DNA from: Gluconobacter vitians
Lineage (GTDB): Bacteria > Pseudomonadota > Alphaproteobacteria > Acetobacterales > Acetobacteraceae
Direction of reading: 5' to 3'
Assembly: GCF_015244565.1 (NCBI RefSeq)
Contig: NZ_JABCQG010000005.1
Span: 62,001-126,000, forward strand
DNA length: 64,000 nucleotides
The notes beneath the pieces were generated by a model. It saw only the letters and a program-made list of their open reading frames with translations, was not told where the DNA came from and made no database searches. The translations under genes were made by a program, and so were the position numbers. Positions 34,363 to 52,617 of the stretch are shown piece by piece (the first letter of the stretch is position 1; every line of letters begins with the position of its first letter).

Positions 34363-34438
34363 GGGCACATAGCTCAGTTGGTAGAGCAGCTGACTCTTAA
34401 TCAGCGGGTCCAAGGTTCGAGCCCTTGTGTGCCCACCA
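34363..34438 (+). tRNA. tRNA-Lys (anticodon CTT)
   Basis: A 76-nt cloverleaf with acceptor arms GGGCACA and TGTGCCC, D-loop AGTTGGTA, anticodon loop CTCTTAA with CTT at 34396-34398, T-loop TTCGAGC and encoded CCA. Its 3' part from the last base of the 5' anticodon stem is the left attachment repeat of the inserted element, so the integrated state keeps a complete tRNA. Confidence 0.97.
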
Positions 34439-34456
34439 TGCCCGTCTCCGGTTATT
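34393..34456 (+). repeat. attL, 64-bp direct repeat
   Basis: Identical to 52554-52617. It starts in the anticodon stem of tRNA-Lys, covers the anticodon loop to CCA, and runs 18 bp past the gene. The bases just outside differ at both ends, which fixes the length. Confidence 0.97.
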
Positions 34457-34462
34457 CCCTTG

Positions 34463-34478
34463 AAAATCTGCGATTTTT
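34463..34478 (+). terminator. element-supplied terminator after tRNA-Lys
   Basis: AAAATC, TGC loop and GATTTT plus one more T, 25 bp after the tRNA. It would replace the host terminator now stranded beyond attR. Confidence 0.5.
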
Positions 34479-34539
34479 AGACTGTCCCAACAGCCTACAA
34501 GGCTCTTGCTGGATTTTGGCTTTGCGGACTCTGCGGATC

Positions 34540-34568
34540 TCCCGGACTCAATCCGGACTCATCTGAAA
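34540..34568. repeat. candidate integrase arm sites, left
   Basis: A 29-bp sequence repeated exactly at 52404-52432. It holds two CCGGACTCA copies, 34542-34550 and 34553-34561, 11 bp apart, with a degenerate third at 34525. Confidence 0.7.
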
Positions 34569-34846
34569 AAGATTGACCGTCTTTGCTGTCAGCATGACTC
34601 GAAGGCAAGACGATGCCGAACAGCAGCAGCAACAACAGAAACCCAACTTTCGGTTTATGTTGAGACCCTCTCTTACCGGGGTGCGAACTACCCCCGGATG
34701 GCACCCCCTCCAGGAAGGACCCAAACGTTTTTCCGGGCACCCTCCCCCGCCTGCCAGCACCACTTCTTCTCCCCTGCGAAAGATATGCATTTTCTGCATA
34801 CCCTTCGGGTCTCTGGCTCTGCCTTTCTCTCCCTAGCATCAAAAAC

Positions 34847-34953
34847 GGTGTTAAAGGTGTTAAGGTGTTATTCGCATCCCAACCCATTGTTTTATATGGT
34901 CTTTTCAATAACACCTTTTGGGATTGCCCCGTAACACCTTCTAAAAGGTGTTA
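34847..34953. repeat. GGTGTTA iteron-like cluster, left
   Basis: Six exact copies of GGTGTTA or its complement in 107 bp, at 34847, 34856, 34864 (direct), 34909, 34932 (inverted) and 34947 (direct). The last two form a 9-bp inverted repeat with a 4-nt spacer. A matching cluster lies at the other end of the element. Confidence 0.75.
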
Positions 34954-35312
34954 TTGATCGCTCGCACAATTTCCCGGAAAACTGCGGTTTTCTTCTATCG
35001 GTCGCTTCTGGGTTCAACTCCGCTCTGCCAGCCTCATATGGACAAGCCATGCGCATAACGCATAACAAGACGAAAATTGCGGGAAGGAAACTTCCTGCGC
35101 TGACCGCGCAGACCACACATCCGGGCCGCGCCGGACCAGTCCGATCTCAGGACCCAGCAGGCAGAATGCGGTAGACGCTGGCCCTCCAATGCCCAGGCGC
35201 TTTGCGCCCGGCGGTGGAAGTCCCCACCCTCTTTTCTGATCGAATGATTTGCCGCCCGACTGCCTGAAGAGTCTGCTCCTGAATTGTCAGACCTTGGCAA
35301 AAGGAGACCGCC
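34954..35312. other. gene-free stretch downstream of the helicase gene
   Basis: No supported gene. Short frames on both strands have no ribosome site or recognisable composition. Together with 34457-34953 it forms an 850-bp non-coding left end. Confidence 0.5.
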
Positions 35313-50947: not shown

Positions 50948-52213
50948 TTAAGAATCTGTCTTATTGATTTTTTGTGCCCAAATCTCGAGAGCTTCAGCTC
51001 TTTCCTTCAAGAACTCATGACGCTGATAAACGGCCGCCACTCCCTTGATCGTTCCCTGCACATGATTCAGCACCCGATCCGCCACATGCGGCCCCACCCC
51101 TAAACGGGCCATGACCGTCACACCCGTTCGTCTGAAGTCATGTAACCGCCAGCCCAGCGCAGGCAGAGCGCAGACTTCTTTTCCCGGCGAATTTTGAGCC
51201 CGCTCCGCCTCAATCAGCTTCTCCAGCCGTTCCTTGGCCCCTGAGAAGTCCGAGATGGGCGTCCTCCCGGTATTCGTGAAGACGTAGGCGGAGATGGCGT
51301 CTGTCTTTGAATCTGTCTGCCTGTGCAGCGCTGCCAGGACATGCCGCGCCGGTTCGGAGAGGTGGACGATGTGGGCTCTGCTGTTCTTCGTCCGTTCGGC
51401 CGGAATGGTCCAGGTCGTCAGATCCGGCGAGATCTCCTCCCACCGCATCTCCGCAACCTCTGTCCGGCGTTGAAGAGTGAGCAGCAGCAACCGGAAGAAC
51501 GGTCCGAAAGGATAGGCCATCTGTCCGGCCGCCCGCCAGATTTCACCGATCTCGTCATCCGTCAGAACGCGATCCCGCGAAACCTCCCGTCCTTCCACAA
51601 TCAGGCGGGCAAACGGATTATCATCCACCAGCTGACGCTTTACGGCCCAGGCATACATGGCGCGGGCATAGGCTTGCAGGCGCCGGGCCGTGGTGGGGTG
51701 CTCTGCTGCGATCTCATCCAGCCGCGCCTGAAGCTCAGAGACGGTCAGGGACTGGGCAGGACGACCAAGAAACTGCTGGAAATTATACCGGATGCGCTGC
51801 GGCCCCTCCTTTTTGTAGACCGCGCTATGTTCCCTGAGCGCCATGCTGGCCCAGCGATCAATCAGGACATCCAAGGTCAGGGCATCTATTGCGGCCTGCG
51901 CCGCCTGCTCCTGAAGGGAGGCTTGATAGGCCACCACCTCCGCCTTGCGCTCGCCCACTGGATCTCCGCCAGCCAGGACGCGCCCACGGGCTTCCTCAGC
52001 CATTTTCCGAGCCTGGGCAATCGTGACGGCCCCATACTCTCCCAGCTTGAGGCGACGGACCTTCCCCGCGTAGCGATACTGAAAGAGGAAGATCTTTGCT
52101 CCGGTTGCCGTGACACGAACCAGAAAGCCCTTGGTCTCCATATCCGAAAACAAGGCATCCCGTTTGCCCGGCGGGCAGGTGAGGGCGTCTATTTCCCGTT
52201 TTGAAAACCTCAT
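50948..52213 (-). CDS. int: P4-type tyrosine integrase
   Basis: A protein of 421 residues. The N-terminal arm-binding domain (DUF4102) includes FLVRVTATGAKIFLFQYRYA and a core-binding domain follows. The catalytic domain has R249 (QRRTEV), H358 and R361 (HDFRRTG), H384 and nucleophile Y396 (VYQRHE). It is transcribed away from attR, 340 bp from it. It would recombine the 64-bp att cores; placement at the end opposite the intact tRNA is less usual for tRNA-targeting elements. Confidence 0.95.
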   Translation of the reverse strand: MRFSKREIDALTCPPGKRDALFSDMETKGFLVRVTATGAKIFLFQYRYAGKVRRLKLGEYGAVTIAQARKMAEEARGRVLAGGDPVGERKAEVVAYQASLQEQAAQAAIDALTLDVLIDRWASMALREHSAVYKKEGPQRIRYNFQQFLGRPAQSLTVSELQARLDEIAAEHPTTARRLQAYARAMYAWAVKRQLVDDNPFARLIVEGREVSRDRVLTDDEIGEIWRAAGQMAYPFGPFFRLLLLTLQRRTEVAEMRWEEISPDLTTWTIPAERTKNSRAHIVHLSEPARHVLAALHRQTDSKTDAISAYVFTNTGRTPISDFSGAKERLEKLIEAERAQNSPGKEVCALPALGWRLHDFRRTGVTVMARLGVGPHVADRVLNHVQGTIKGVAAVYQRHEFLKERAEALEIWAQKINKTDS

Positions 52214-52226
52214 ATCCGAGGCTCCA

Positions 52227-52338
52227 TAACACCTTTAACACCTTCGAAATCGAAAGGTGTTAGTGGAAAAACCGGAGAAAAACACAATGAAATCAGTATA
52301 TTATATATGTGAGTAACACTAATAACACTTATAACACC
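52227..52338. repeat. TAACACC iteron-like cluster, right
   Basis: Copies at 52227, 52236 and 52332 plus an inverted GGTGTTA at 52256 are exact; 52314 and 52323 are TAACACT. They lie immediately upstream of the integrase start and mirror the left cluster. Confidence 0.75.
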
Positions 52339-52403
52339 GTAATTGTGTAGCTCCCTGAATTTCATTTTGCCCATTTCCCCTATCCGGACCCGCTGACGTG
52401 TTT

Positions 52404-52432
52404 TCCCGGACTCAATCCGGACTCATCTGAAA
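52404..52432. repeat. candidate integrase arm sites, right
   Basis: Identical over 29 bp to 34540-34568, with two CCGGACTCA copies at 52406 and 52417. It lies 121 bp from the attR core. On the excised circle both copies would flank attP. Confidence 0.7.
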
Positions 52433-52503
52433 TAGCAACCGGGGCGTCTAGCTGCATCTCTTTGCGTGAACCGTCTCAGACGTCTTCCTGTAAGGCGTTG
52501 TGA

Positions 52504-52529
52504 TTGCGTGCTTTTGCGTTTCCCTGCGT
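52504..52529. repeat. phased TTGCGT array beside attR, candidate excisionase sites
   Basis: TTGCGT at 52504 and 52514 and CTGCGT at 52524, spaced exactly 10 bp, complement the ACGCAA array upstream of the AlpA-like gene; another TTGCGT is at 52462. The array ends 24 bp before the attR core. Confidence 0.7.
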
Positions 52530-52553
52530 CTTAACTGTATTTCGCCGGGCGTA

Positions 52554-52617
52554 ACTCTTAATCAGCGGGTCCAAGGTTCGAGCCCTTGTGTGCCCACCAT
52601 GCCCGTCTCCGGTTATT
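52554..52617 (+). repeat. attR, 64-bp direct repeat
   Basis: The same 64 bp as attL. It contains the 3' part of tRNA-Lys from the anticodon stem onward but no 5' half, so it is not a second tRNA gene. Confidence 0.97.

Follow-up and report, generated by a model that had tools for sequence, protein, structure and literature searches.

A candidate cos-type phage satellite in Gluconobacter vitians that carries its own tail tape measure protein

An 18.2-kb integrative element, bounded by direct repeats at a tRNA-Lys gene, lies within a 64-kb window of the Gluconobacter vitians genome (64,000 nucleotides of contig NZ_JABCQG010000005.1; coordinates below refer to this window unless another locus is named). 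From its sequence we judge, with a probability of roughly 0.6, that it is a phage satellite of the cos type, which would build chimeric helper tails with its own tape measure protein (TMP), where both the packaging and the tails are deduced rather than seen. The proposal is carried by two features, each of which has a counterpart in a prophage on another contig (C10) of the same genome. Both were overlooked by the first-pass annotation of this DNA, the TMP being the most telling gene of the element.

34676-34722, minus strand: cos-like packaging site, part of a homologous stretch (34630-34723) shared with the C10 prophage
44852-46750, minus strand: phage tail TMP, 632 residues (phrog_9570 at 6e-83; phrog_2276 at 3e-82)

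The satellite and its candidate helper reside in one genome, and among the loci we compared they form the sole pair found whose TMPs are so alike. Our literature search found no earlier report of phage satellites in the Acetobacteraceae, nor of a satellite together with a prophage in Gluconobacter.

A cos-like site common to the element and a prophage of the genome

The cos-like site of the element is located between the DUF927 gene and attL, in a 94-bp non-coding stretch that is 79% identical to its C10 counterpart in a DNA comparison. In the prophage, this stretch lies directly upstream of an open reading frame (ORF) that by eye resembles the small terminase Nu1, before TerL. A 29-base pattern derived for the site has, with at most three mismatches, exactly two copies in the 3.16-Mb genome, one in the element and one in the C10 prophage. 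A related pattern, searched at the same tolerance across 26 genomes of the genus, recovered 10 sites in nine genomes, all of them free of mismatches, and the reversed pattern used as a control recovered none. Four of these sites are in prophages with this type of TMP, each before TerL (the resident prophage and those of genomes G251, G253 and G257), and the remaining six are in elements (the one described here and those of G218, G250, G255, G258 and G259).

A looser form of the pattern gave 15 matches in 14 of the 30 element loci defined below (527 kb), with a mean of zero in 10 dinucleotide shuffles. All 14 matches in the fetched loci lie on the strand of the DUF927 gene, 0.3-2.7 kb downstream of it. 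The site likewise precedes TerL in the phage loci L112, L116, L166, L167 and L197, and Acetobacter phage phiAP1 shares only its GGGTCCTTCC half. In L104, two cos-like sites (13161 and 14331) are separated by 1.2 kb and lie close to the element's end. The location, conservation and exclusive sharing of the site are observed directly, and from these we infer that it is cut by the terminase of a helper phage. Because the site is shared with the resident prophage, a satellite is strongly favoured over a plain integrative element; the first-pass annotation had rightly offered these two readings and left the choice between them undecided.

The C10 prophage was compared with phiAP1. Among 18 phiAP1 virion and packaging proteins, 17 are matched in the same order, including TerL (25%), portal (65%), capsid (70%) and sheath (66%), as well as an S49 protease, a decoration protein, and tube and baseplate proteins; the sole phiAP1 protein left unmatched in C10 is the one taken as its small terminase. 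We regard this contractile-tailed prophage as a candidate helper. Three DNA matches with E values of at most 1e-3 connect the element to the 28-kb C10 stretch; they correspond to the N-terminal part of the TMP (78% over 1008 bp), its C-terminal end (70% over 197 bp), and the 94-bp non-coding stretch already described.

A tape measure protein with conserved ends and an exchanged enzyme

A search of the resident genome revealed only one other TMP, that of the C10 prophage. The satellite TMP was compared with eight related phage or prophage TMPs, namely those of C10, of three other Gluconobacter genomes (L337-L339) and of four viral contigs that have no host assigned (L342-L345), among which L339 and L342 may represent one phage recorded in separate collections. 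Over residues 1-260, the satellite protein shares 92% identity with C10 and 73-88% with the other seven proteins. Identity to all eight falls to 63-71% in residues 261-390, a region where C10 is 79-83% identical to six of the seven others (60% for L338). Residues 391-570 are unrelated to the phage TMPs (15-21%), and the last 62 residues (571-632) again match them at 64-76%, with 74% for C10. The source lineage of the satellite TMP is that of phiAP1 and of prophages in Gluconobacter (C10, G251, G253 and G257), which unlike the element possess capsid, terminase and sheath genes.

The unrelated middle of the satellite TMP is an RNNNPGN-type peptidoglycan hydrolase that stands in place of the phage enzyme. 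It matches endolysin family phrog_873 (2e-36), the tail-injection transglycosylase family phrog_7182 (5e-19) and two PDB chains, 9vvp Gp29 (9e-14) and 7q47 endolysin (6e-11). The middle domain of the C10 protein is instead Phage_lysozyme2 (PF18013, 2.5e-25), and the seven other phage TMPs match this C10 domain by BLAST at 42-68% identity. Thus, all eight phage proteins share a Phage_lysozyme2-type middle, and the satellite protein alone carries another enzyme.

Given that the first ~390 residues of the satellite and C10 proteins align without gaps, tail length would probably be unchanged by the exchange. Pairwise comparison of the satellite with seven phages over residues 1-260 gives dN/dS values of 0.04-0.07, and that of C10 with six others gives 0.03-0.055; pairs with L338 were saturated and yielded no value. 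Kept ends and an exchanged middle suit a protein that passes as the helper TMP during assembly and acts differently at entry. An AlphaFold model of the satellite TMP was too poor for use (predicted local distance difference test, pLDDT, 42). We also considered that the gene might be a remnant of a tandem prophage, and rejected this since no other clear virion family was found in the 20 ORFs between the att sites.

Boundaries and gene content of the element

The features of the element other than the two listed above are as follows. Gene content was obtained from Pfam and PHROGs scans of 20 element ORFs, to which PADLOC models were added.

34363-34438, plus strand: intact tRNA-Lys (ctt), the integration target (ARAGORN; Rfam RF00005)
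34393-34459, plus strand: attL core repeat, 67-bp direct repeat, with empty attB elsewhere
34542-34561, plus strand: two CCGGACTCA boxes 11 bp apart, left end (exact 9-mer count)
35313-37343, minus strand: DUF927 helicase (Pfam PF06048, 7.5e-92)
37177-38244, minus strand: primase-like protein with DUF7146 and Toprim (Pfam; phrog_510)
38241-38810, minus strand: ORF without assigned function that recurs in several related elements (element comparison)
38807-39373, minus strand: a further ORF without assigned function that recurs in several related elements (element comparison)
39367-39624, minus strand: AlpA-like or excisionase-like regulator (AlpA/HTH_17 just below the Pfam cut-offs; phrog_66, 3e-10)
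39733-42213, minus strand: four ORFs (39733-40722, 40719-41576, 41573-41989 and 41986-42213), Pfam-negative, shared by Gluconobacter elements
40560-40629, minus strand: structured element resembling int-alpA RNA (Rfam RF02996, 34.5 bits against a gathering score of 35.8, E 7e-4)
42233-42574, plus strand: divergent helix-turn-helix (HTH) repressor-like gene (Pfam; related elements)
43050-43700, plus strand: RmrT-like defence candidate (PADLOC, 3e-36)
43710-44804, plus strand: RmrA-like protein with HTH and IrrE peptidase domains (PADLOC, 5e-150; Pfam)
46754-47605, minus strand: helical coiled-coil protein (ORF list)
47575-48033, minus strand: small ORF upstream of the coiled-coil gene, Pfam-negative and PHROG-negative
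48455-49777, plus strand: Mrr-type nuclease (Pfam PF04471, 1.7e-27), its N-terminal segment membrane-anchored-looking by eye
50019-50944, plus strand: IrrE/ImmA-like peptidase and small putative membrane protein (Pfam, PHROGs, PADLOC; membrane reading by eye)
50948-52213, minus strand: tyrosine integrase (Pfam Arm-DNA-bind_3 and Phage_integrase; phrog_1)
52406-52425, plus strand: two CCGGACTCA boxes, right end, within the 32-bp repeat D2 (9-mer count)
52554-52620, plus strand: attR core repeat, second copy of the 67-bp direct repeat

The att repeat, which begins at the anticodon loop of the tRNA, has a single mismatch at base 65 and so preserves the 64 perfect bases that had been described beforehand. 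The integrase was likewise placed correctly, at the end distal to the intact tRNA. Copies of a 32-bp repeat just inside both ends of the element hold the 9-mer CCGGACTCA twice. Because this 9-mer has only four exact copies in the window, two at each end, the paired boxes are probably arm-type sites of the integrase.

Occupancy of the chromosomal target was assessed through the gene on the right flank (PGM), which was matched in 25 of the 26 Gluconobacter genomes searched. In 11 of the 25, a complete tRNA-Lys beside this gene marks an empty attB, and five have an att half alone, as expected of an occupied site; all five carry a related element. The fetched stretch gave no tRNA match in the remaining nine.

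Pfam and PHROGs agree with the first annotation on the Toprim, DUF927, repressor and AlpA-like genes, and the Toprim and DUF927 proteins match phage primase families in PHROGs. The element also has the AlpA-type regulator that is typical of Gram-negative phage-inducible chromosomal islands (PICIs), although its Pfam matches fall just under the cut-off. The earlier statement that capsid, terminase and conjugation genes are missing is upheld insofar as neither Pfam nor PHROGs matched any of the 20 ORFs to a capsid, portal, terminase or sheath family and the Pfam scans matched none to a conjugation family, and it needs to be amended for the one virion gene, the TMP, that it left out. A satellite is expected to have no capsid, portal and terminase genes of its own, and the element conforms to this expectation. 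The ‘defence cargo’ claimed for the element stands as a resemblance, through the PADLOC models for RmrT and RmrA and the Mrr-type nuclease.

The coiled-coil gene ends 3 bp ahead of the TMP start and is a probable operon partner of the TMP. BLAST reveals no kinship between it and the coiled-coil genes beside other satellite TMPs, among which those of L100 and L104 are related to one another. No relatives were found in viral contigs, the PHROG matches are weak (spanin-like and scaffold-like, 0.03-0.09), and the AlphaFold model was too poor for use (mean pLDDT 53).

The sequence resembling int-alpA, an orphan structured RNA, overlaps the 5' part of ORF 39733-40722. Among 14 relatives scanned with Rfam, three have matches above the gathering score (L072 7266-7338, L076 7151-7220 and L086 7753-7819), and the copy in the window falls just under it. 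It may be a regulatory RNA of satellites, with a position comparable to that of the P4 immunity RNA. RNAalifold detected no base pair changed on both sides among nine int-alpA-like sequences, and we do not claim covariation.

Related elements in the Acetobacteraceae

The search for related elements that the first-pass annotation proposed was productive. A genome scan with a Toprim alignment yielded 79 loci from the best 80 matches, mostly in Acetobacteraceae and other Alphaproteobacteria, and 52 of 249 genomes of the family have a DUF927 match with an E value of 1e-20 or lower. A common plan is evident, in which an integrase is followed by variable cargo, a divergent HTH gene, unassigned genes, AlpA, Toprim, DUF927, a cos-like site and the tRNA. 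For counting, we accepted 30 loci in which AlpA, Toprim and DUF927 are present and no terminase, portal, capsid or sheath match occurs. These are the window, L068, L072, L073 and 26 of the loci L082-L118; several are cut by contig ends, such that absences among them are not firm, and L117 was counted although it is possibly a prophage. Left out were L079 and L080 (AlpA detected only by tblastn near 1e-5), L109 and L122 (no DUF927 match), L113 (no AlpA match), and Toprim loci without an AlpA or DUF927 match.

A TMP is encoded in five of the 30 loci (the window, L068, L073, L100 and L104), and some of these relatives pair it with a chaperone, a head protease (S49) or a minor tail protein. A tail assembly chaperone (TAC) is present in L068, L100 and L104, and the cassette is conserved between L100 and L104 (58.6% identity for S49 and 38.6% for the TMP). 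When other virion genes are included, 11 of the 30 loci carry at least one, the additional six being L096 (baseplate hub), L098 (lambda-type decoration protein and Z-like minor tail protein), L101 and L108 (Z-like), L106 (a weak chaperone match, 2e-9) and L117 (hub-like). Beyond this set, four loci are satellite-like: L329 (Int-TAC-TMP-Z) and L332 (TAC-TMP-Z) are 4.6-kb contigs, and L330 and L331 combine a distant Toprim with a TMP, L331 also encoding a TAC and a Z protein. Given that TMP and lambda gpZ both act in DNA ejection, the TMP and Z-like cassettes would share one theme.

Several of these loci have individual peculiarities. The hub gene of the Gluconacetobacter tumulicola element (L096 1721-3058, 445 codons) is positioned within the replication module, between an unassigned gene and Toprim. 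In the Roseomonas satellite L098, a lone head decoration protein of the lambda type is found at 5201-5686 (PF02924, 5e-16). A DUF3800-VIII RNA (57 bits) occurs at L068 10939-11872, at the end of what is by eye a DUF3800-like ORF; this ORF is cargo of the G056 satellite, near its protease and TMP genes. Finally, the interval 5736-14139 of L341 (G124:C7:80000-99900) holds a primase and a lone TMP, together with a single protein in which the major head protein and protease are fused; L341 is possibly a capsid-forming satellite of the Acetobacteraceae with its own TMP.

Comparison with known satellites

Satellite TMPs and chimeric tails are already known from the phage-inducible chromosomal island-like elements (PLEs) of Vibrio cholerae, for which a 2026 report described tails built with the satellite's own TMP, chaperone and hub (PMC12987554). 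In that report, the particles of PLE11 contained TMP and hub made by the satellite, which also has a chaperone gene, and transfer fell by ~99.9% when tmp was deleted; its authors noted that further work is needed on the benefits of the changed tail assembly, and mentioned putative tmp genes in PLE-like elements and in capsid-forming PICIs (PMC12987554). The element resembles the PLEs (PLE11, PLE1 and PLE4, satellites of phage ICP1) in encoding its own TMP and in its association with a contractile-tailed phage (PMC12987554), as well as in its 18-kb-scale size (PMC6092414), and its relatives carry a chaperone or baseplate hub, the functions of the PLE proteins TAC and BhuB (PMC12987554). This likeness is one of described gene functions. 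It differs from PLEs in its host group, its identifiable replication module and its cos-like site. The PLE11 TMP is only 20% identical to that of ICP1 and alters tail length (PMC12987554), whereas the ends of the element's TMP are 74-92% identical to those of the prophage protein, with an unaltered ruler length and another enzyme domain; unlike PLE11, the element has no chaperone.

In its overall plan the element is closer to the Gram-negative PICIs. Like EcCICFT073, it has int, AlpA and primase/helicase genes and a cos-like site matching that of its candidate helper, and the two cos sites reported for EcCICFT073 recall the cos-like sites of L104 (PMC6092414). It is distinguished from these islands by its divergent HTH repressor-like gene, its virion cargo, and its Toprim and DUF927 proteins, which would stand in place of Pri-Rep. 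Some capsid-forming PICIs likewise have putative tmp genes (PMC12987554), and the element differs from them in that it has no capsid gene.

The first-pass annotation had called the replication module P4-like. The general plan agrees with this, and P4-like satellites also have an integrase beside an anti-phage hotspot and a cos in common with the helper (PMC9122126). However, psu is a marker gene of P4-like satellites (PMC9122126), and the element has Toprim and DUF927 replication proteins and an arrangement of int, AlpA, primase-helicase and cos genes and sites nearer to that of the Gram-negative PICIs (PMC6092414). No Psu was found among the Pfam and PHROG matches of the 20 ORFs. Pfam includes a Psu family, and we rejected P4 membership as a label for lack of Psu. 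What appears to be new is an independent, PICI-like lineage of cos-satellites in which virion genes occur piecemeal.

Proposed mechanism and alternative explanations

Upon induction of the helper, the satellite would excise and replicate through its own Toprim/DUF927 module; by analogy with EcCICFT073, helper growth would turn on AlpA, followed by excision and replication. The helper terminase would then package the satellite from cos, and the satellite TMP, whose ends still match those of the helper protein, would be built into helper tails in its place. The resulting chimeric tails, unchanged in length, would bring satellite DNA into cells by means of another peptidoglycan-degrading enzyme. 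Since the element measures 18.2 kb and a phage of this kind 42.8 kb, its DNA would be expected in small heads or, alternatively, as packaged dimers of about 36.4 kb. By its analogy with PLE11, we infer that the same strategy was reached in an apparently unrelated, PICI-like satellite lineage.

Several observations weigh against this proposal. A TMP is a minority trait of the related loci and is absent from all four other Gluconobacter elements whose cargo is visible, and it occupies a variable slot that elsewhere holds defence genes. The PHROGs scan matched no TAC among the ORFs beside the TMP, unlike the situation in PLE11 and three relatives. The cos-like pattern is unmatched in 16 of the 30 loci, some of which are cut by contig ends, and the C10 contig, read over C10:92000-120270, stops at the tail genes, such that the helper may be incomplete. 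The TMP of L073 was compared with six other genomes. Five gave a match, in each case confined to the TMP encoded by a satellite or satellite-like locus of that genome, and the sixth gave none; for this reason no second satellite-helper pair was found. No viral relatives of the L073 protein were detected. Finally, polarised counts of silent and replacement changes are 12/13 on the satellite branch against 27/10 on the prophage branch for residues 1-260, 11/16 against 5/3 for residues 261-330, and 8/10 against 4/2 for residues 571-632. We give these counts little weight because the same method, run twice as a yardstick, returned 25/32 and 26/31 for the C10 prophage.

Some of the same observations would suit a cos-type satellite in which the TMP serves as anti-phage cargo, entering or competing in phage tails and spoiling assembly or entry so as to protect the host population. 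The slot between repressor and integrase holds RmrTA, Mrr and, by eye, toxin-antitoxin-like pairs in relatives, and tail assembly is the target both of Tai in PICIs and P4-like satellites (PMC11364771) and of Rta in PLE11 (PMC12987554). We nevertheless consider this unlikely, as the assembly ends and ruler length are preserved, a whole enzyme domain is present, and relatives combine the TMP with a chaperone, a head protease or a minor tail protein, which suits building better than blocking; moreover, the available text of these reports describes neither Tai nor Rta as a TMP copy, and Rta has 80 residues (PMC12987554, PMC11364771). It seems at least as improbable that a prophage TMP was picked up by recombination and persists in a cos-type satellite as a passenger without a role. 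Its patchy occurrence, the greater divergence of residues 261-390 than is seen between C10 and most other phages, and the excess of replacement changes on the satellite branch would be expected of such a passenger, but the frame is open, its ends are conserved, pairwise dN/dS is low at residues 1-260 and the gene is closely coupled to the one upstream. Recurrence in other satellites, with different TMP lineages and partner genes, also argues for a function. Very improbable, in our view, is a plasmid-like or integrative and conjugative element (ICE)-like unit that replicates itself without phage packaging. The replication module and the lack of capsid, portal, terminase and sheath matches among the 20 ORFs would accommodate it, yet the cos-like site is common to element and prophage and occupies the same place in 14 of the 30 loci. 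We rejected a dedicated ICE or plasmid, since the Pfam scans found no conjugation family and matches to plasmids span just 1% of the query.

Implications

We therefore retain the proposal of a cos-type satellite that supplies helper tails with its own TMP. If it is true, satellite particles would cross the cell wall with an enzyme unlike that of the helper. The benefit of altered tail assembly would be open to direct test here, where the pair resides in one genome, the TMPs match at their ends, and the two proteins differ most in a single enzyme domain. More tentatively, and with less than even confidence, we suggest that Acetobacteraceae satellites re-arm helper tails as a general strategy that has evolved repeatedly, with the clade drawing on TMP, chaperone, Z-like and hub genes. 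If correct, these elements would constitute a new satellite clade in the Acetobacteraceae, which would also provide a home for the orphan RNA family int-alpA.

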